From an uncultured Candidatus Berkelbacteria bacterium (GTDB lineage: Bacteria; Patescibacteriota; UBA1384; XYA2-FULL-43-10; CAINNR01): a stretch of DNA of 52,809 nt. Below are positions 21,917-45,304 of this stretch, one piece after another (within the stretch, counting starts at the first letter, position 1; every line of letters begins with the position of its first letter). Under the pieces are notes generated by a model. That model ran no database searches and had not been told where the DNA came from. It was given only the letters and a program-made list of their open reading frames with translations. The stretch lies in contig CAINNR010000016.1 of assembly GCA_903851235.1 (NCBI GenBank), forward strand, positions 1-52,809, written 5' to 3'. The translations under genes and the position numbers were made by a program.

Positions 21917-22261
21917 TTAATCTTCTTCCTCGGTTTTTGTCATTGTCATTTTTATGACTGAAATAAAGAAAAACAGCATTGCTCCAAGTGAAAACTGATC
22001 AGTTAAATCAGACTTTTTCAGTACTATCGATAGGGACATCAAAACGAAAAAAACGAATGCCCATACTGCAATCTGTCTGCCACTGGGGCTTGCAAATATC
22101 GCCCAAATCGCTAGCAAAAAAACAATTATTTGGATTGGATGCCAATTTAAATACAGACCCAAACATCCGGAGAAAAACAAAAAAATGTATCTGAGGTCAG
22201 GAATATTATCCGCAATAATATTGCGGCTGTTTTTAATTTCCATTTTTTTAACTTTTTTCAT
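21917..22261 (-). CDS. Small multi-TM protein
   Basis: 114 aa, hydrophobic segments, overlaps the next gene by 4 bp. Confidence 0.6.
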   Translation of the reverse strand: MKKVKKMEIKNSRNIIADNIPDLRYIFLFFSGCLGLYLNWHPIQIIVFLLAIWAIFASPSGRQIAVWAFVFFVLMSLSIVLKKSDLTDQFSLGAMLFFFISVIKMTMTKTEEED

Positions 22262-23805
22262 TTTTGCTTAATTACCCCGGTTATTCCAAGGTCGCTGACT
22301 CCGAAAACTTTGTTGCTCTTCCCAATATCTTCCTGGTCATAAGTAAATTTTAAATACAAAGTCGTTGATTTCCCATCACCGACAACTGACTGACCGAACC
22401 AATCGCCGCCGCCGGCTGGATCTTGTGGTTGTATCTTTTTCCAATTAATATCATCGAACGAGTAATAGCCGATGGTATTAACGGAATACCCGCCAAGTTG
22501 CTTGTATTTGATTTCAAAAGTATCAAAAGCTGTCAGAGTATCAAATTTATAGGAAAAACTCGCCTGACCGCTTGCCGGGGCCGAGACGGCATCACTTATG
22601 TAATCAAGATATGGCAATTGATTTGAGCTGGAGCTGTTTCCAAAAATATCCAAATAATCATTGGCCGAGCGGCTGAATTTATAGCGATATAGTTTGTTGC
22701 CCTGCCCCAAGTCTTCAATAACCGCATTGTATGGTATTTTGCTGCCGTTCTCAATAACCGGCTGAGCCGATTCTATCTGAAAAAACAAGTCGCCAATTGT
22801 TTTATTCGATCCGATGATATAAGCACCAGCAATCGGATAACTTGAGTTATTACAAGAGCCTAAAATTCTAATCGAATTGAAATAGTTTGTTTTGACCGCA
22901 AAGTTATCAATGGCCAAAAAGTAATACTGGCCTTTTTCCAAATTGCTCGCCAATGGGAAACGATAAGTATTTTTTTTCGTCGAATATTTATCCAAATCGG
23001 AGGGATCGAATTGGAAACTGGCAAGAACCGTCGGATCAATGGTCAAATTGCCACTGTTTAAACTGGCCTTTTTCAGCGTTAATTGATAATTGCCTAAACC
23101 GCCGGTACCGACAGTGTCCAACGCCAGATTAACCCAGCTGACATTGTCACTTTGTGCGGAAAAAACCTGTCCGACACCGGCTTTACCAAAACCAAATTTA
23201 AACAAAAGGTCATTATCGGAATCCATTTCTGACGTGACTTTTGTCCCGAGACTATTGCCAAAAATTGTCGACGCCAGTCCGGATAAACACTGATCACTCT
23301 GACAATTCAGTCGAGATAGAGAAATATCGCCAACTTTGATTATCGGGTCATAATTTGGATCATCTCTTTGAATTATGAAATAGGAAAAACTTCCATTGGT
23401 TTTGAAAGTTAAATCTTTCGCCTCAATTTTTCCGTCTTGAGCAACTGAAATATCAGATAAAGTTTGCCTGGCACCTCCGTCGCCGGCAAGTATTAGACGG
23501 ATTTTTGATTTTTCAGCCGTCGTCGCATTTACAGTTGCTCTTATGGTGAAAAACAGATGATAATAGTCGCCGGTATTTGAGATAAGGACTTTGTCAGTCG
23601 AGACGGATCCGGCCCCCGAATCAATGGTAAAAATGTTGTTTTGAATTTCTGAGATCTGTTCTTGATAAGATTTTATCACCAGACTATTGTCGCCCGGATC
23701 AAGATTTTGCATAAAGAAAAAAGCAAAAACCATAATCAAAATTAGCAGAATATATTTCCAGTATTTGATAAGCAAATTGATGATCGGCTCTTTAACTTTT
23801 TCCAT
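22258..23805 (-). CDS. TM-anchored extracytoplasmic protein of unknown function
   Basis: N-terminal TM then long beta-rich soluble region; overlaps 23792-26350. Confidence 0.65.
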   Translation of the reverse strand: MEKVKEPIINLLIKYWKYILLILIMVFAFFFMQNLDPGDNSLVIKSYQEQISEIQNNIFTIDSGAGSVSTDKVLISNTGDYYHLFFTIRATVNATTAEKSKIRLILAGDGGARQTLSDISVAQDGKIEAKDLTFKTNGSFSYFIIQRDDPNYDPIIKVGDISLSRLNCQSDQCLSGLASTIFGNSLGTKVTSEMDSDNDLLFKFGFGKAGVGQVFSAQSDNVSWVNLALDTVGTGGLGNYQLTLKKASLNSGNLTIDPTVLASFQFDPSDLDKYSTKKNTYRFPLASNLEKGQYYFLAIDNFAVKTNYFNSIRILGSCNNSSYPIAGAYIIGSNKTIGDLFFQIESAQPVIENGSKIPYNAVIEDLGQGNKLYRYKFSRSANDYLDIFGNSSSSNQLPYLDYISDAVSAPASGQASFSYKFDTLTAFDTFEIKYKQLGGYSVNTIGYYSFDDINWKKIQPQDPAGGGDWFGQSVVGDGKSTTLYLKFTYDQEDIGKSNKVFGVSDLGITGVIKQK

Positions 23806-26350
23806 TGTTTTTCCTGATAATATTCCTCAATAGAAATCCCAAACTTGTGGCTAAAGTTAAGAGTGTCACAAAGCCAAATATATAATAAAGTCGCTGTGGC
23901 CAAAATTCCATCACCAACTCAAAATCATAGCTGCCATCCGAATTTTTAACACAACTGTATTGCTGGCAGAATTTTCCCGGATTAATCAGCCAACTATTGG
24001 CGTATCCGTTAGCCGGAATATGAGCATAGCCAGCAGATAACGGTTTCCTGAACCAGGTTTCAAAAACAGAGCCATTAGGCAAGTTGTCATTTTGGATAGT
24101 GCCCTTAAAATTTTTTGAAACAAAATTACTGCCGAGATTACTAATCAAACCTTGATTAATAAAGTCGCTAAGCTCTGCTGTTGTCGCTTGGTCAGTGGAA
24201 TTTCCGGCAACTTGTTGATCTGATGTTTTGTCAATCGATTTTTTGTAATTTTCCGGATAAAGTCGCCAAGAATCGTTATAAGATTCAGAAAAAACCAAGG
24301 GGAAATCACTCGTCGCTTTGTGAACGCGGACTCGAAATCTTGTCGGGCTGATTTCTTTGTATTCAACAGTTGGGGGCGAATCGACCTTTGTTGGCATGTC
24401 GGCCAGAAGTTTATCCAAAACTCCATCTTTGTTGAAATACAACACCTGACGATTATCAGTGATTGATTTATTGATCACTGTTGGTAAATCGGAAACCGAT
24501 AGTTTTGAGATAATAATTTTCGTCGGAGTATAAATGTGTGGCAGATAGAATTGATCCGCAATTTTATAGAGTGTGAAATAATCATTTTTCTTGACTTCAG
24601 TAATAAAACCTTTGTTGACATAATCCTTAATTTTGTCGGAAGTCTGAGCGATAAATTTTGGATCAACATCAGTGTGATAGATAAAATAGCGACCGTTCAT
24701 TAGACCGAGAAAAGGCAGGAACCAGTTGGAATCCTCCGGGCTCTGACGACTCCAAAGTTTTCCATAATTCCAATCACCAAAAATTGAGAAGGCGTTCATT
24801 TGCGTCGTCGGTTTATTAAATAGCTGAACCGTCGGGTCAACCCCTATTAACTTCCATTTCGGCAAATTGACCCAACCAACAGAGTTGATAACACTGTATG
24901 GACCAGAGACTATACGATCAAGCAGTTTCTCCTGATTTAATTGATCGGCAATCTCCCGATAGTCATTTGGAATTTTTACCAAAGAACTATTTTCAGCGGT
25001 CAGATAATTTTGACCCTTCAGGTGAGCTTCAGAATAAAAAGTTTGAATATTGCCTTTGACAAAAGGGATAGCAGAAAGAAAAGAAACAAAAATCGCTAAA
25101 ACGATAATCAATTTCAACGGCTTGGTTTGCCTGGGAAAAATTAAAACAATCGGAAGCAAAATAAGAAAAGGCATAAATATGGCAGCCTTGTCATAACTCC
25201 GAAGCGAGCCTAAAATAGGATTTTTAAATATCGACCAAATAATACCCGGATTTATAATCCCCGCTCCCTTGTTCAACAAAAAGATACAAACCAAGAGTAG
25301 CAAAAGAAAAATTTTCTCCTGCTTGGTTATTTTTTTTTGAAAACCGAGCAACAACGTCAGAGAGAAAAACAACCCGCCGGCAAAAAATGTCAGCAGTTTT
25401 AGATTGGTTGGGTTATTTATTATATCGCCTAAAAAATAAACCGTAGGAACACTGGCCGCCTGCCACAAAATCCACGATCGCAGATCAAACAAAGCCGTTC
25501 CAGTTGCAAATGAACCAGAAAGTCGAAGCATCTCCTGTATCTGCGGAATTACCGACCAGCTGGTGGAGAGAAGGAGCAAACCGGCATAAAGCAGAGCATA
25601 TTTCAGATATTTTTGAATTTGGAGTCGATCACGATTGAAGATGTAAATTAAGACAATCAGAATCAGCAGTAAAATACATTGGGCGATAAAAAAAGCTAAA
25701 TTGGCATTCGAGATATTGCTAAGAAAAAATATTACCACTAGAAACGGTAGCAATTGCAAAGCACTTTTTCGGTTGAGATCGGTGAAATATCGGTAAGTCA
25801 GGGCAAAGAAGATCGGGATCAGAGGATAAAGAAACAAAAACGGTTGACTATATCCCCACATTCCGGCAAAGTAACGCAAAGTATAAATATTAAAGGTGTA
25901 AGAAAGGGCAAATAAAATTTTAACCCAATCAGAAATTCCAGATTCAGCTGTATCAAAAAACCGCAACGACAGATAGAATGACCAGAAAGATGCTATCAAA
26001 AACAACAGAATCAAAAGGCTTGCTTGATTTTGTAACGAGAGTTTAAGAATTGAGTTGAGAAAATTAATAGCGTAGTTGTACAAGCCATAGCAATAATTGC
26101 TATTGAAATTTCCTTCGCTGGTAGAATTAGCCCAAAGATAATTTCCGCTCTGGATCATTTTTGACCAATTGATTGTTTGCGAGGCGTCTCCACCAGAAAC
26201 AATATACCCAAGTGGCAATCGGTTGACAACAGCGGAATAAATGATGACCAATTGACTAAAGATTAGTAAAAAATACTTGTTGGAAAATATCAATTTAATT
26301 CTAGAAATTAGATTCATAACATAAATAGATGTTAGAAATAAACTTCCCAC
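23792..26350 (-). CDS. Large multi-TM YfhO/GT-C-like membrane protein
   Basis: 852 aa as tracked; likely start MNLISRIKLIF at 26317. Confidence 0.75.
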   Translation of the reverse strand: MGSLFLTSIYVMNLISRIKLIFSNKYFLLIFSQLVIIYSAVVNRLPLGYIVSGGDASQTINWSKMIQSGNYLWANSTSEGNFNSNYCYGLYNYAINFLNSILKLSLQNQASLLILLFLIASFWSFYLSLRFFDTAESGISDWVKILFALSYTFNIYTLRYFAGMWGYSQPFLFLYPLIPIFFALTYRYFTDLNRKSALQLLPFLVVIFFLSNISNANLAFFIAQCILLLILIVLIYIFNRDRLQIQKYLKYALLYAGLLLLSTSWSVIPQIQEMLRLSGSFATGTALFDLRSWILWQAASVPTVYFLGDIINNPTNLKLLTFFAGGLFFSLTLLLGFQKKITKQEKIFLLLLLVCIFLLNKGAGIINPGIIWSIFKNPILGSLRSYDKAAIFMPFLILLPIVLIFPRQTKPLKLIIVLAIFVSFLSAIPFVKGNIQTFYSEAHLKGQNYLTAENSSLVKIPNDYREIADQLNQEKLLDRIVSGPYSVINSVGWVNLPKWKLIGVDPTVQLFNKPTTQMNAFSIFGDWNYGKLWSRQSPEDSNWFLPFLGLMNGRYFIYHTDVDPKFIAQTSDKIKDYVNKGFITEVKKNDYFTLYKIADQFYLPHIYTPTKIIISKLSVSDLPTVINKSITDNRQVLYFNKDGVLDKLLADMPTKVDSPPTVEYKEISPTRFRVRVHKATSDFPLVFSESYNDSWRLYPENYKKSIDKTSDQQVAGNSTDQATTAELSDFINQGLISNLGSNFVSKNFKGTIQNDNLPNGSVFETWFRKPLSAGYAHIPANGYANSWLINPGKFCQQYSCVKNSDGSYDFELVMEFWPQRLYYIFGFVTLLTLATSLGFLLRNIIRKNNGKS

Positions 26351-26399
26351 GACCTTACGGTCGGGGATCTAAGTGAGGAAGATTAGAGATTTAATCTTC
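26343..26399. repeat. Two adjacent hairpins
   Basis: CCCACGACCTTACGGTCGGGG (26346-26366) and GAAGATTAGAGATTTAATCTTC (26378-26399). Confidence 0.55.
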
Positions 26400-26437
26400 A
26401 AAGAGATATTACCACGATCAAGTCAAAAAGAACAGCA

Positions 26438-28573
26438 TCAATCAGACTGCAATTTTTTGTTCGATCGCTTCCGACTATAGAAAATATAATAAATTAACAA
26501 CAAAAAAGTAGCTGAAGATAATAATTCAGTCAATACTACATAACGCTCCGGCCAGAATAATAAATAAAAAATAGCGTTTTGATTTCCGTTTTTGTCGACT
26601 GAAAGTACACCGCTTGACCGCAAATCAGAAATTTTCACCTCATACCCATTGCCAATATCATTGGTTATGTGGTGTGTATTATCGGAAGAAATAACTTTAG
26701 CAAAAAAGCCACTGCCGCTCAGCAACTTCCAATAAGAATTATAACTTTCATTGAAATTCAAATTAAAATTGCCACTGATATTTTTGACCTCAATCCTATA
26801 CTTTGCCGGATTGATTTGTTCATAAGTTACGACAGGATAATTTTGACCTGAAGCAGAAATTAAGGGAGTCGTAGATTTTAATTTAATCGCTAAAATCGGT
26901 CCTTTATCGTAATAAATCTCCGCTTTTCCGACTGCAACTTCAGCTCGTAATGCTTGATCGAATTTTAATTTCTCTACATCTCCCCAATCAAAAATGTCTA
27001 AATCTTTGCGAAAAATAATGTAATCTACCCCTGCGGTTGATGACACATTGATTAGTTGATTAGCATCTTGGCTTTTTGCCGCCTCATTTATCTGATTTAT
27101 TATACTGGCAGAACCACCGGTATTGCGGTCGGAGAATGCTGATACTCCAGCAACAGGCGAAAAACCAGCATAGATATCTTGCACTTCCTGGTATGCGCCA
27201 CGAAAATTTTTGTCATATGAAGTTGAAACCATACCGCCAAGTGGGAAAAATATCGCTCTTTTGCTCTTATCATCATTTTGCAGCTTGCTGTCAAGCTCCT
27301 GATATTCTGCCGGCCAAGTTTTGGTTCTAAAGCGGAAATCTGATTGAATTTTCGGTTTACCAAAAAACGAGCCGGAAAAAAATGGCCAGGCACCAAGAAA
27401 TAGTGAAAGTAAAACCACTCCGATCAAAATATATTTCCAACGAAATTTCATCTTGAAAATATAATCGATCGTAATTGCCGCCAATGTCGCCAGAGCAAAG
27501 TTGGCTAAAACCAAAAATCTGGCGACATCTCGCATCAGATTGGCAAACGGCAGTTTGGCTACAAACTCTTGACCACCAAAATAGAAGATAATCGGCACCG
27601 CGAGTATCAGAATTAGATAGACAATATGCCGTCCGAACTTTTTCCATTGGATAAATGAAAATGCCGCCACAAAAGGCAAAGCGTAAGAAAAAATTGTCAG
27701 ATTTTTCGGAAAACTGGCTTCAAATTGATAATTAAATAAACTCGCCCAAAGCCGAAATATATTTGCTAATGTTAATTTCTCGGATGCACCAATGCTGATT
27801 GTACTTTTTACAATGTCATTGCCCACAACGCCTTGATCGGGAAATGCCAAAAGGATAAACAGCCAAAAACTGTTTAGAAGAATAAATCCGATAATCGTCG
27901 CCAAGCCGTAGACGATGCTTAACTTGAACTTCTTCGTTGATATTCCGTAGCCAAGAACTAAAGCCAGTAAAATTAACGAATACCACACTATTGTCTGAGA
28001 TTGAATTGCTAAAGTAAAAACAATTGCTGTCAATATCAGATATCGAAAATCTCGCTTATCAACCGCATTTAAAAACAAAAAACTAAAGAGAGGCATTAGG
28101 GCCAAAGACAACAGAACGTATAGCCAACCCATCAGAGAGTAATTGAAAAATACCGGAGTGAGAATAAAAATAAAACCGCCAATAAACGCCGATAGAGGTT
28201 TTAACCCAATGTAGCGAGCAAAGAGGCTAAAGTTCGCCGCGCCAAGACCAAAAGTCAGGACAAGAGAAATTTTTATTAGCAAAGGAACACCGATACCGAT
28301 TTTTGCAAACAATAATAGAGGTGCAATAAAGAAAATGACGACAGAGGATAATTGCCGGGTGCCAAAAATATTTCCGGTACGAGTCCAAGTGTGAAAAAGA
28401 GTATCAAAAAATACTTTAATCTGACTGGCAGTGGCAGGAAATCCCCAATCTCCACCGCTGAGGCTGCCTTTCGAAAAAAACAATTTAAGAAAAATCAGAA
28501 AAGAGACTAAGAAGTAAAATAAAAAAAGGTAACCATAATGTGATAAGAACTTTTTAATAATTTTCTCCATCAA
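26438..28573 (-). CDS. Large multi-TM YfhO/GT-C-like membrane protein
   Basis: 711 aa; many TM segments, C-terminal soluble part and final TM. Confidence 0.75.
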   Translation of the reverse strand: MMEKIIKKFLSHYGYLFLFYFLVSFLIFLKLFFSKGSLSGGDWGFPATASQIKVFFDTLFHTWTRTGNIFGTRQLSSVVIFFIAPLLLFAKIGIGVPLLIKISLVLTFGLGAANFSLFARYIGLKPLSAFIGGFIFILTPVFFNYSLMGWLYVLLSLALMPLFSFLFLNAVDKRDFRYLILTAIVFTLAIQSQTIVWYSLILLALVLGYGISTKKFKLSIVYGLATIIGFILLNSFWLFILLAFPDQGVVGNDIVKSTISIGASEKLTLANIFRLWASLFNYQFEASFPKNLTIFSYALPFVAAFSFIQWKKFGRHIVYLILILAVPIIFYFGGQEFVAKLPFANLMRDVARFLVLANFALATLAAITIDYIFKMKFRWKYILIGVVLLSLFLGAWPFFSGSFFGKPKIQSDFRFRTKTWPAEYQELDSKLQNDDKSKRAIFFPLGGMVSTSYDKNFRGAYQEVQDIYAGFSPVAGVSAFSDRNTGGSASIINQINEAAKSQDANQLINVSSTAGVDYIIFRKDLDIFDWGDVEKLKFDQALRAEVAVGKAEIYYDKGPILAIKLKSTTPLISASGQNYPVVTYEQINPAKYRIEVKNISGNFNLNFNESYNSYWKLLSGSGFFAKVISSDNTHHITNDIGNGYEVKISDLRSSGVLSVDKNGNQNAIFYLLFWPERYVVLTELLSSATFLLLIYYIFYSRKRSNKKLQSD

Positions 28574-35485: not shown

Positions 35486-38383
35486 CTAATTGCTCTTGTT
35501 AGATTTTTTCGAAGAAAAATCCGTCAGATGTCCGAGCACTTTTCCGCCAGCGCGAAAGAGGAATTTGATGTCGTCGAAACTTCGAACGCCAACGATCTTT
35601 CGCCAGATAAATTTCGGCGTCACAAATGACTTGTATAAATCCTGCGTCAACTCTTTAATTTTCTCCTCGGTCAGCTCCGATTTCATGATAATTGTTCGCT
35701 GATCGTACTTGTCCCAATCCTCGGTCGTCAGCCAACCATTTTCCTGACACTGTTTGAACAACGGCGTGCCCGGGTAAGGAATTACGATTGTCGCTTGCAA
35801 AGTGTCAACAAAACCCTTATCAAATAATCGCTTTGAGAGGGCAACAGTTCTCTCGGCATCGGCAACCTTCTCCCAGGGATAGCCCATCATCGTGGTAATG
35901 TGCGGCTCAAGTCCACCGGCTTTGGCCATTTTGACACCTTTCTCGATCTCTTCAACCTTCAAGTTTTTATTGATGCGGTCCAGAGTTTTTTGATTGGCCG
36001 ATTCCAAACCGTAGAGGATGAAACGGAATCCGGCTTTGCCCATCAGATTATATTCCTCCTGATTCAACGATTTCAACCGCATATTGCAATCAAGTTTGAT
36101 TTTTTTGTTGTATCCGCGTTCAATCATACCGTCGCAAAATTCGCCCAACCACTCTCCGATCGGAAACGATCCGGAGTCATCCATAATCTCTCGAACCTGA
36201 TATTTTTCGATTAATTCGCCGATTTCATCCAGCACTCTCTTAACCGAATGTTTGCGATAATCTTTGCCCGGATAAAGCGTCGTCCAAGAGCAATTTTTCA
36301 CCGCTACAAAATTCGCCGTGTAGGAGTGATCATCATCAACGGTTAAATTATAAACATCTCCGGAATAAGCGCTTCTGATAATGTTTTTGACTGGTAATAG
36401 AGCATAATTATTAAAAATAAAGCCTTTTTGATAATGTTTTTGCTTGTGAGCAGATAGAGACGTCGGAAAGAATTTTTTAATGTCGTCGCCATATAGATGA
36501 ATAACATACGCTTGATTTTTTGTTTTTTTACCCGCTTTCGGTAAACGGAAACTGGCAATTATATTTTGGCGCAAAAGTAGATCGTAAACTTGGCGAGCAA
36601 GTTTTTCCGAAACTGTTGAAAAAATTAGTTCCCGACCACCATGAACTCTTTCTTTTCTGACATGACCGTCACCGCGAAAAAGACCAACCAACAATTGTTT
36701 TTGCTTGGAAAGCGACAAATGCATAAAACTTGCCGGCAATGATTTGTTAAGACTATTTGAACCGAAAAGCAATTCAAAAGCCCTGGCTAATATGGAAGAA
36801 CCCAAATAAAGCTGAGTCGTATTGTTAGCCTTGTTTTCACTTGCATTTAAAGACAGCCCAAAAATTTGCCCGAAGATCGTTTTTACGTCCTTTATATATT
36901 CTTTTTCTTTTTGAGAAAAGGTAAAACCCAGACAGGCAGAATTTGGTCTATTGCCACGTAGGCTAACATGTCCTTCAGCCAAATAGTAACCGAATAAACG
37001 CAAAGATTCGGCCGATAGTTCCATCTCTCTTGTTACGGACTTCTTGCCTGCCTCAAAACGAAAATCGCTCTTTGTCTCGATTAATGGATTTATTTTTATC
37101 GTCAATTCATCAGATTCAATCAAATCAAAGTAGCGCTTTACTGTTTCTCGGTCAATTTTTAATTCAATAGCTACCCTTCTTTGTGAAACACCATTTAGCC
37201 GCAAATTTTTAATCTTTTCAATTACCGACGGTGAGATTTTTCGTCTTGTTTTAAGCTTTATTTCGGCACTGCGAATAATTTCAGTCAAGTCCAGTGTTTT
37301 CATATCTTTGACTCGCCGATCAATTGGCAGGGAAAGATAATCGCCTGGAGAAATTTCCTCAGCCGGAACAGCGATAATCTCCGGTTTGGTTTTATTCTCC
37401 TGTCGACAAATATAAATCGGGTGATTTGAAGTTGCAAGAATCTTTTCAGCCAAATAATCGGCTTCAACAGTAATCACTGGACCAAGATATGCTCGGCGAT
37501 GCCAGTGGGTAATCTTTCGATACCTGCCCGTATGAGTAAGTACCTTTGCAGATTGCTTATTATTAACAATGTCTTCAATCGGAAAATAACCACTATCGGT
37601 AGTAATTTTGGCACCGGCGGGAAAGCAGAATGTGCATTTTCCCCACCAACAATCGCGGGCGGCAAAGGTGTAAGTTCCCGGCGTTCGTTTGTAATTGCCG
37701 TTTTTAAAGGCGTAGAGTTTCCACTTGGTCAGATCGCGATCGATCATCGGTAGTTCATCGAGGTGATGATTTAGGAGAAAATGTCCGGTATTTTTAATCT
37801 CTTCTTTCGATCGACTCCCATCCGAACTTTTTACTTTTTTCCGGTACCAGATTCCCGGTTCGAGTTGAACTTTGTGATTGTAAGAATTGGCGATATTGAG
37901 GGCGAGAAAATCGTAATCGCCGCCGGTGGCAATAACATCGACAAGTGAATTTTTCATCGACTCCATAGGCAGTGCGGTAACATGATCGCCGCAAAGAACT
38001 ATTTTGGTCTCCGGCAACTCGTCTTTTATAACCTCAATAACTTTCCAGTGCCGTTTAACAACCGGCGTTTTGGTTTCGAAGACAATAAGGTTCGGCTTAA
38101 ACTTTTTAATTCTCTCCAACCATTCGTCTTGCGATAATTCCTCGGCAATGCCATCATCCCACATTACGTCATAGCCCTGCGATTTTAGAAGTGACGCGGC
38201 ATAAGCCGGCACCATCGGATAGATGAAAGTCGGATTGGCAAACCACTGAAACTGACGATTCTGACCAAGACAGGGCGTCCCCTTTTCACTTGGCATCGGC
38301 GGATAAGAAATCGCAATCCGGAACTTGCTATTTTTCTCCCGCTGTTCTTTGGTCGGCTGTTTAATCTGAACTATTTTTTCCAT
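35486..38383 (-). CDS. B12-binding-type radical SAM protein containing an intein
   Basis: Extein N-part GYDVMWDDGIAEEL.../VLCGDHVTALPMES; FAARDCWWGKCTF|intein|CSWTTLYPG; TIM-barrel part EIMDDSGSFPIG, LKSLNQEEYNLMGKAGFRFILYGLESANQKTLDRINK. Likely start MEKIVQIKQ at 38383 with upstream AAGGA. Confidence 0.92.
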   Translation of the reverse strand: MEKIVQIKQPTKEQREKNSKFRIAISYPPMPSEKGTPCLGQNRQFQWFANPTFIYPMVPAYAASLLKSQGYDVMWDDGIAEELSQDEWLERIKKFKPNLIVFETKTPVVKRHWKVIEVIKDELPETKIVLCGDHVTALPMESMKNSLVDVIATGGDYDFLALNIANSYNHKVQLEPGIWYRKKVKSSDGSRSKEEIKNTGHFLLNHHLDELPMIDRDLTKWKLYAFKNGNYKRTPGTYTFAARDCWWGKCTFCFPAGAKITTDSGYFPIEDIVNNKQSAKVLTHTGRYRKITHWHRRAYLGPVITVEADYLAEKILATSNHPIYICRQENKTKPEIIAVPAEEISPGDYLSLPIDRRVKDMKTLDLTEIIRSAEIKLKTRRKISPSVIEKIKNLRLNGVSQRRVAIELKIDRETVKRYFDLIESDELTIKINPLIETKSDFRFEAGKKSVTREMELSAESLRLFGYYLAEGHVSLRGNRPNSACLGFTFSQKEKEYIKDVKTIFGQIFGLSLNASENKANNTTQLYLGSSILARAFELLFGSNSLNKSLPASFMHLSLSKQKQLLVGLFRGDGHVRKERVHGGRELIFSTVSEKLARQVYDLLLRQNIIASFRLPKAGKKTKNQAYVIHLYGDDIKKFFPTSLSAHKQKHYQKGFIFNNYALLPVKNIIRSAYSGDVYNLTVDDDHSYTANFVAVKNCSWTTLYPGKDYRKHSVKRVLDEIGELIEKYQVREIMDDSGSFPIGEWLGEFCDGMIERGYNKKIKLDCNMRLKSLNQEEYNLMGKAGFRFILYGLESANQKTLDRINKNLKVEEIEKGVKMAKAGGLEPHITTMMGYPWEKVADAERTVALSKRLFDKGFVDTLQATIVIPYPGTPLFKQCQENGWLTTEDWDKYDQRTIIMKSELTEEKIKELTQDLYKSFVTPKFIWRKIVGVRSFDDIKFLFRAGGKVLGHLTDFSSKKSNKSN
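36293..37627 (-). mobile_element. Intein (445 aa) with LAGLIDADG homing endonuclease
   Basis: Block A CFPAGAKITTDSGYFPIEDI; block B LATSNHPIYI; DOD motifs LRLFGYYLAEGHVS and LLVGLFRGDGHVRK; block F GDVYNLTVDDDHSYTANFVAVKN; +1 Cys. Confidence 0.95.
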
Positions 38384-38419: not shown

Positions 38420-38489
38420 TACTTTGACTCTGAAGCTTGGTATTTTCAGAGTAGCAAAAAAAATCTCCAACAACAAGGAGGCGACGCAA

Positions 38490-43576: not shown

Positions 43577-45304
43577 TCAGTAGCCAATTTTTTTAAACCA
43601 AGAGATCGTTCGTTTTAGGCCGGAATCTAAATTGATTTTCGGCCGCCAACTGAGCTGTTTCTTTGCCAAACTAATATCCGGCTTGCGCTTTTTCGGATCG
43701 GAGATCGCCGGCGCAATGTGGATAATTTTTGACTTCGAATCGGTTAGCTTAATGACTTTCTCTGCCAATTCAAGCATCGTAAACTCTTCGGGATTGCCAA
43801 TGTTGATCGGTCCTTCAAGATCCGAGTGAATAAATTTCAACTGAGCGTCAATTTGATCATCGACAAAACAGAACGACCGTGTCTGATTGCCACTGCCTTG
43901 GATCGTAATGTCATCACCCGATAATGCCTGTTTAATAAATTGGCTCACCACCCGGCCATCATCCGGGTCCATCAGAGGACCGTAAGTGTTAAAAATTCGA
44001 ACGACGCCGGTGTTGACGCCTTTTTGCTGCCGAGCTTGATAGATTAATGCCTCGGCGTAGCGTTTGCCTTCGTCATAACAGGATCTCATGGTATAAGATT
44101 CAACGTTGCCGGCATAACTCTCCTTCTGCGGATGTTCCAACGGATCGCCGTAAACCTCGGATGTCGACGCCTGAAAAAACCGAGCGTCATTTTTGAGCGC
44201 GAATTTCAGCAAATTTTCCGTGCCAATTGAACAGGTTTCCAAGGTTTTTATCGGGTCGAGATAATACTTTGGCGGCGAGGCCGGACAAGCGTAGTTCAGA
44301 ACAAAATCAAATTTGCCCCGAAACTTCAACGGCTGGCGAATATCATGTTTTTTAAATCTAAACCTCCTATTTTTTCCCAGCTCGGCTAGATTTCTGCCGC
44401 TGCCAGTCTGCAAATTGTCGATAACCAAAACTCGGCCACCGGCTTTTAGTATTCGCTTGGCAATGTTGGCGCCAAGAAAACCGGCGCCGCCGGCGATGAG
44501 ATAATTTTTACCGACATATTTATTCTCTCTGCCAACAAAAGCTTTTTTCGCAATCGGAGCTTCAATCTGACTCATGCGGCGATAATAATTTAGGATTCTG
44601 GCCCGATAGAAAACCGCCAGGGTGTCGAGAATCATTTTCTGTATCGTTTTTAAGTTGATACCCGAACTGACGGCGTTAAAATCCATTTCAATCGGCGCCT
44701 CAAAGACTCGCCGATAACCGAGCTGGTGGGCAATCACCAACATCTCGAGATCAAAGGCATATTGCTTAACCAGCGCCCGTGGAACGACATCTTTGGCAAC
44801 CTTGCTCCTTAGAAATTTCAAACCGGCTTGGGTGTCGGTGACATTCAAACCGAATAAAATTCTAATCACCCGCTGGTAAATCCAAGAGAAAATTCGTCGT
44901 TTTCGCGGATAGTTGACCTGCGACGCCGGGTGGCGTTTCGAACCCAAAACAAAATCGGCGTCAAAAATCTCCATTAATTTGACAAATTTATCGAATTGCC
45001 TCGGGTCAAAGTCACCACCGGCATCGGTAAAAGTGATAATTTCGCCCTCGGCGTGTTTGGTACCGTACTTTAAGGCGTAGCCCTTGCCGTGGTTTGGATG
45101 ATACTCCAGAACTCTGATATTTTTTGATTTATGCCCTCTGGCCTTGGCCGCCGTTCTATCCGGTGAGCCGTCAACGACAACAATCACCTCATAGGAGTAA
45201 CCCAGGGTGTCGTGAGCTTTAACAATTTTATCGATCGTCCGGTAGATATTCTTCTCTTCGTTGTAGGCCGGAATGATAATTGAAAGTTTCGGGGACTTTT
45301 TCAT
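43577..45304 (-). CDS. Fusion: DPM1-like GT2 + UDP-glucuronate decarboxylase-like SDR
   Basis: N-terminal PKLSIIIPAYNEEKNIYRTIDKIV...DTQAGLKFL; C-terminal NYLIAGGAGFLGANIAKRIL...STSEVYGDPLEHPQKESY...SCYDEGKRYAEAL. Confidence 0.92.
   Translation of the reverse strand: MKKSPKLSIIIPAYNEEKNIYRTIDKIVKAHDTLGYSYEVIVVVDGSPDRTAAKARGHKSKNIRVLEYHPNHGKGYALKYGTKHAEGEIITFTDAGGDFDPRQFDKFVKLMEIFDADFVLGSKRHPASQVNYPRKRRIFSWIYQRVIRILFGLNVTDTQAGLKFLRSKVAKDVVPRALVKQYAFDLEMLVIAHQLGYRRVFEAPIEMDFNAVSSGINLKTIQKMILDTLAVFYRARILNYYRRMSQIEAPIAKKAFVGRENKYVGKNYLIAGGAGFLGANIAKRILKAGGRVLVIDNLQTGSGRNLAELGKNRRFRFKKHDIRQPLKFRGKFDFVLNYACPASPPKYYLDPIKTLETCSIGTENLLKFALKNDARFFQASTSEVYGDPLEHPQKESYAGNVESYTMRSCYDEGKRYAEALIYQARQQKGVNTGVVRIFNTYGPLMDPDDGRVVSQFIKQALSGDDITIQGSGNQTRSFCFVDDQIDAQLKFIHSDLEGPINIGNPEEFTMLELAEKVIKLTDSKSKIIHIAPAISDPKKRKPDISLAKKQLSWRPKINLDSGLKRTISWFKKIGY

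Follow-up and report, generated by a model that had tools for sequence, protein, structure and literature searches.

A predicted homing intein at the third cluster cysteine of a radical SAM protein from a Candidatus Berkelbacteria genome

In the stretch of DNA analysed here (the window, 52,809 nucleotides), the gene for a radical SAM protein is interrupted at its third cluster cysteine by an element that its sequence identifies as a class-1 intein with a LAGLIDADG homing endonuclease. The explanation that we consider highly probable is that of a LAGLIDADG (DOD) homing intein whose cost to the host would be erased by splicing, and both the patchy presence of the element among orthologues and the conservation of its target site are, as far as sequence comparison can tell, what a homing element predicts.

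Structure of the gene and its product

The whole gene (35486..38383, minus strand) runs from an ATG at 38383 to a stop codon at 35488-35486 and encodes a precursor of 965 amino acids, the frame being open throughout. The sequence AAGGA precedes the ATG at 38383, and a TTG start at 38476 is likewise open. The precursor can be sub-divided into three parts, all on the minus strand. The N-extein (252 aa, 37628..38383) comprises a Rossmann domain of the B12-binding type (Pfam B12-binding, E 5.5e-7, slightly under the cut-off, and homologue alignment) and the first two cluster cysteines. These are precursor Cys245 (37649..37651) and Cys250 (37634..37636), both invariant in alignments A2 and A3, with Cys250 at -3 relative to the intein, where the redox trap of MoaA also has a cysteine (MoaA Cys-3/Cys1 taken from PMC3922620). 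The intein itself (445 aa, Cys1 to Asn445) occupies 36293..37627. The C-extein (268 aa, 35489..36292) opens with the +1 Cys (36290..36292), the predicted splicing nucleophile, which would become the third cluster ligand, and continues with the remainder of the radical SAM barrel, followed by helices at the C-terminus (Pfam Radical_SAM, E 1.2e-13, and the model of an empty orthologue). The G+C content of the intein, 0.38 (0.32 at third positions), is lower than that of the exteins, 0.45 (0.50-0.55 at third positions).

A first-pass annotation, made from the letters alone, had already placed the element, and its ORF, Cys1 codon (37627-37625), terminal Asn codon (36295-36293), length and ARDCWWGKCTF|CSW join all proved exact. 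Its reading of the insert as an intein within a radical SAM protein was upheld by profile searches. Pfam Intein_splicing (PF14890, E 3e-9, 37.3 bits against a cut-off of 35.8) and the NCBIfam model of the intein C-terminus (TIGR01443, 22.4 against 15.6 bits) both pass, and the model of the intein N-terminus (TIGR01445) falls slightly under its cut-off (22.5 against 24.5 bits).

LAGLIDADG_3 (PF14528, E 1.8e-15) also passes its cut-off, in two stretches, and the two dodecapeptide motifs each possess an acidic residue: LFGYYLAEGH at 36968..36997 and LLVGLFRGDGH at 36662..36694. Every full-length copy of the intein found at this site, be it that of the window or those of three other loci described below (L002, L003, and L236), retains both acidic motifs. 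A helix-turn-helix at 37127..37243, detected as a weak HTH_7 match (E 0.0018, under its cut-off), can be aligned in L002 and L003 and is missing from the mini-inteins. We compared an AlphaFold model of the precursor, which is weak over residues 246-251 and 699-708, with known structures; the top matches were the intein/homing-endonuclease crystal structures 7qsu and 2cw7, followed by the radical SAM enzyme 6fd2.

The residues that define class-1 splicing (Cys1, Thr66 to His69, Asn445, and Cys+1) are all there. Block B reads TSNH (37421..37432), and its Thr66, Asn68, and His69 do not vary among the five same-site inteins that make up alignment A1. Two positions in blocks F and G (VYNLTVDDDHSYTANFVAVKN, 36293..36355; TIGR01443 above its cut-off, and alignment) are unusual: Lys, not His, stands ahead of the terminal Asn, and Asn is aligned at the block F position that in many inteins is Asp. 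A penultimate His is usual in inteins, not universal, and dispensable in some; splicing without it has reportedly been documented for Ssp DnaE, to go by the title of a reference. None of the nine same-site inteins has a penultimate His; Lys, Ser, or Ala takes its place, with Cys1 and the C-terminal Asn kept throughout, and the missing His thus reads as a trait of the same-site family and not as decay of one copy.

A decayed intein, which would splice poorly and leave the gene dead or yielding fragments only, is therefore a most improbable explanation: the Lys and the block F Asn could be taken as its signs, but no stop interrupts the 965 codons, the same-site relatives share the lack of His while keeping the terminal residues, the Thr and His of block B do not vary, the invariant residues of the extein are kept, and Ssp DnaE is said to splice in the same state.

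The element is present as a single copy in its own 1.04-Mb, 98%-complete genome. That genome also possesses a second intein, a mini-intein in a DnaB-like replicative helicase (L083:295-2124; G000:C26:45775-46179), with the junctions RESG|C...HN|S and the usual penultimate His.

The insertion site and its empty orthologues

Excision of 37627-36293 fuses ARDCWWGKCTF to CSW. We fetched 80 orthologues from bacterial and archaeal genomes, using patterns that included the peptide DCWWGKCT, and 76 of them have no insert; the gap between the extein halves is zero in 75 and -1 in one (L057, a truncated match). L004, the nearest relative that we found (88% identity), is among those with an empty site. 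The empty orthologues read contiguous RDCWWG[KR]C[TA][FY]C, which makes the +1 Cys the third cysteine of the cluster, as the first-pass annotation had proposed. It had named intein-free homologues without a contiguous motif at this point as evidence against its reading; the 76 empty orthologues have the motif.

In a wider census with a profile of the whole gene, the motif was RDC[WPA][WY][GQ][KR]C[TKA][FY]C throughout, and one locus (L232) illustrates that the tryptophans can change and the cysteines not. The cluster spacing CX4CX2C, with invariant cysteines, is the rule in this family, in place of the canonical CX3CX2C, which is found in most of the distant radical SAM paralogues of the same genomes. 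In the precursor, Cys1 follows Cys245 and Cys250 at the normal spacing, so that three cysteines stand in line before splicing. The earlier description of a [4Fe-4S] site split by 445 aa has to be amended: the linear CX4CX2C of the unspliced chain is, by its sequence, completed by the Cys1 of the intein, and it is everything after Cys1 that would be displaced.

Distribution of the same-site inteins

The remaining four of the 80 orthologues have an intein at the identical place. These are a Berkelbacteria copy of 444 aa, 59% identical to the intein of the window (L002), an Omnitrophota copy of 481 aa, about 38-40% identical (L003), and two mini-inteins from Woesearchaeota, L077 with 168 aa and L078 with 170 aa. 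Since the first fetch had used DCWWGKCT, the census was redone by whole-gene profile, independent of the motif. Among 381 genomes of the window's phylum, this revealed 34 empty orthologues, and only the window's own genome (G000) and G014 are known to carry the intein; both were missed at the strict threshold of the phylum profile search, the gene being split. Among 282 genomes of the phylum of the Woesearchaeota genome G006, 10 orthologues were empty versus six with the intein. One of these six nanoarchaeal copies has the endonuclease (L236, 432 aa), and the other five are endonuclease-free mini-inteins of 156-170 aa.

Two of these genomes or loci deserve a separate remark. The small Woesearchaeota genome G006, from which L077 derives, matches the intein splicing domain 23 times, with more than one match in several ORFs, and can be called an intein-rich nanoarchaeon. 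The Omnitrophota intein (L003:5721-7163) has an extra CxxC/zinc-ribbon-like stretch (KRCSKRSCWDYFC...CGVCNKKY) after block B.

In a tree of 94 exteins, seven changes are needed to account for the presence of the intein, and supported branches make at least six of them unavoidable. For the window gene, L002, and L003 alike, the sister gene is empty, and L003 and its sister L067 are 92% identical in amino acids. The tree of the inteins matches that of the exteins at the split between bacteria and archaea and for the closest pairs, whereas some inner branches differ. Between the window and L002, dS is saturated, which precludes both a date for the gain and a dN/dS value for the window intein. In two pairs of mini-inteins, dN/dS was 0.12 and 0.27, which indicates purifying selection.

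Homing or regulation

In the homing explanation, the endonuclease would most likely cut empty alleles at the DNA that encodes RDCWWGKCTF|C, and repair of the cut allele would copy the intein in. After translation, splicing of class 1 would follow: Cys1 would attack the Phe252-Cys1 bond, the +1 Cys would take over the thioester, and Asn445 would then cyclise. The third cluster cysteine would be restored without a scar, at the predicted junction ARDCWWGKCTFCSW, and the radical SAM enzyme could take up its [4Fe-4S] cluster. We infer three elements of this account: splicing itself, cutting of the site by the endonuclease, and the view that any effect of redox state or iron on splicing is incidental, not a switch favoured by selection.

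Several properties would favour this site. The cluster motif hardly changes, its Trp, Cys, and Phe codons are abundant and of low degeneracy, it supplies an invariant +1 Cys, and the intein can be lost only by exact deletion. Homing inteins are known to prefer conserved sites (PMC10643990). Here, the DNA directly 5' of the site is the best-conserved stretch of the gene, and windows centred on the site fall in the top 3%; since the scan used orthologues partly fetched by DCWWGKCT, amino acid conservation of the motif is inflated, but codon choice is not. Even the archaeal L077 has 28 of 30 bases 5' of the site in common with the window. Identity shows no clear rise near the site of the kind that a co-conversion tract would leave, and a pattern search for a viral reservoir at the site found 80 viral loci, none of them at a radical SAM motif. 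Our search of the literature for inteins of candidate-phyla bacteria brought up no relevant paper. The five nanoarchaeal copies persist without an endonuclease, and something besides homing is needed to account for them; these mini-inteins would be either leftovers that an exact deletion has yet to remove or copies retained for a function.

The first-pass annotation had suggested that splicing could gate the activity of the enzyme. Such a conditional switch would let the oxygen-labile enzyme be made only when useful. We think this unlikely, though redox gating is chemically plausible by analogy, because the MoaA intein of P. abyssi forms a Cys-3/Cys1 disulfide that blocks its splicing under oxidation (reviewed in PMC3922620 and PMC10663303), and the present insert also has a Cys at -3. 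A switch could work by two routes: a disulfide between Cys250 and Cys1 could block the first splicing step under oxidising conditions, or Cys245, Cys250, and Cys1 of the precursor could bind a cluster or metal and so mask the nucleophile. Reduction or loss of the cluster would then free splicing. The geometry of the insert (Cys at -3, catalytic Cys1, and CTF|C) does match MoaA, but it arises automatically wherever an intein lies at this cysteine. The third-cysteine site is occupied in tetraether synthase, too, by an intein that has no special relationship to the present one. The persistence of mini-inteins under purifying selection in five nanoarchaeal genomes would likewise fit a switch, but such selection is expected regardless, because the extein needs splicing. 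Most orthologues, sister genes and nearest relatives included, manage without the intein, and its distribution, as read from sequence, does not support gating.

A homing intein therefore remains our preferred reading, and the same-site inteins offer a natural series, with full, mini, and empty forms at one site in both bacteria and archaea, for asking whether inteins become regulators. The residue at the site serves both splicing and cofactor binding. Should splicing prove insensitive to redox state and iron, the simpler view, in which a selfish element occupies a motif that can hardly change, would prevail.

The host protein and its locus

Radical_SAM (PF04055) matches the host at 52 bits, against a cut-off of 29.5, and both the three-cysteine motif and the barrel are present. 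The B12-binding profile (PF02310) scores 29.9 bits against 32.1, and fold matches include B12 enzymes and AprD4; the host is best described, from its sequence, as a radical SAM protein, putatively of the B12 type, with the match to the B12-binding-type domain slightly under the cut-off. For the spliced-type protein, represented by the empty orthologue L004, the best profiles are HpnJ and BchE, both far below their curated cut-offs: L004 scores 181 bits against the equivalog cut-off of 577.6 for HpnJ (TIGR03471), and 142 against 481 bits for BchE. The model of L004 (pLDDT 87.5) has the fold of the solved radical SAM enzymes AprD4, MgmA, TsrM, and OxsB (TM 0.57-0.67 by query length) at an identity of 14-16%, and OxsB has in alignment the CX4CX2C spacing of the host family. 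Foldseek matched the empty orthologue to 6fd2 with E 3e-20.

The gene had been assigned to a glycan locus, and its neighbours bear this out: glycosyltransferases, methyltransferases, an epimerase, and a flippase-type protein. The orthologue is likewise found among sugar genes in Methanoperedens and Desulfosarcina. Elsewhere in the window, a minus-strand ORF of 575 aa (43580-45304) fuses a family 2 glycosyltransferase with an epimerase resembling GDP-mannose 4,6-dehydratase, and three large minus-strand ORFs of the glycan locus (515, 852, and 711 aa; 22261-28573) have no Pfam match at E 1e-5.

Comparison with known systems

Three known inteins may be compared with that of the window. Callahan et al. 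reportedly described in 2011 a redox-trapped Pyrococcus abyssi MoaA intein. Like that of the window, the MoaA intein has a radical SAM host, a Cys at -3, and a catalytic Cys1 (the MoaA geometry being as given in reviews), but the host family is different, and it is for MoaA that redox control has been demonstrated.

The second is the intein of archaeal tetraether lipid synthase (Tes, NCBIfam NF045703), an endonuclease-sized insert that also lies at the third cluster cysteine (CNLSCWY|C...N|CFFY; an empty homologue reads CDLACWYCFFY). We encountered this intein-containing synthase in two of 298 archaeal genomes (L126 and L127), and our literature search found no paper on an intein in tetraether synthase. 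Tes belongs to another radical SAM family, with CX3CX2C spacing, and its inteins are only 22-28% identical to that of the window. They score 54-65 bits with a profile of the nine same-site inteins, on which inteins from viral contigs reach up to 199, and a jump between radical SAM genes was ruled out on these values. Judged by sequence, the Tes intein is most likely a separate insertion.

The third, the mycobacterial SufB intein, resembles the present case in its iron-sulfur-related host and has been studied for regulated splicing (PMC8891592); it differs in that its host functions in cluster assembly and is not a radical SAM protein, and in that the penultimate His is present.

One may ask whether the third radical SAM cluster cysteine is a convergent hot spot for unrelated inteins (the present family, Tes, and, by literature, MoaA) that some hosts, especially nanoarchaea with endonuclease-free copies, have retained as a gate that responds to redox state or to the cluster, Cys1 being able to serve as a temporary cluster ligand in the precursor; we regard this as a doubtful proposition. 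Inteins at this kind of cysteine were already known, and the window adds a further radical SAM family with an intein at the last cluster cysteine.
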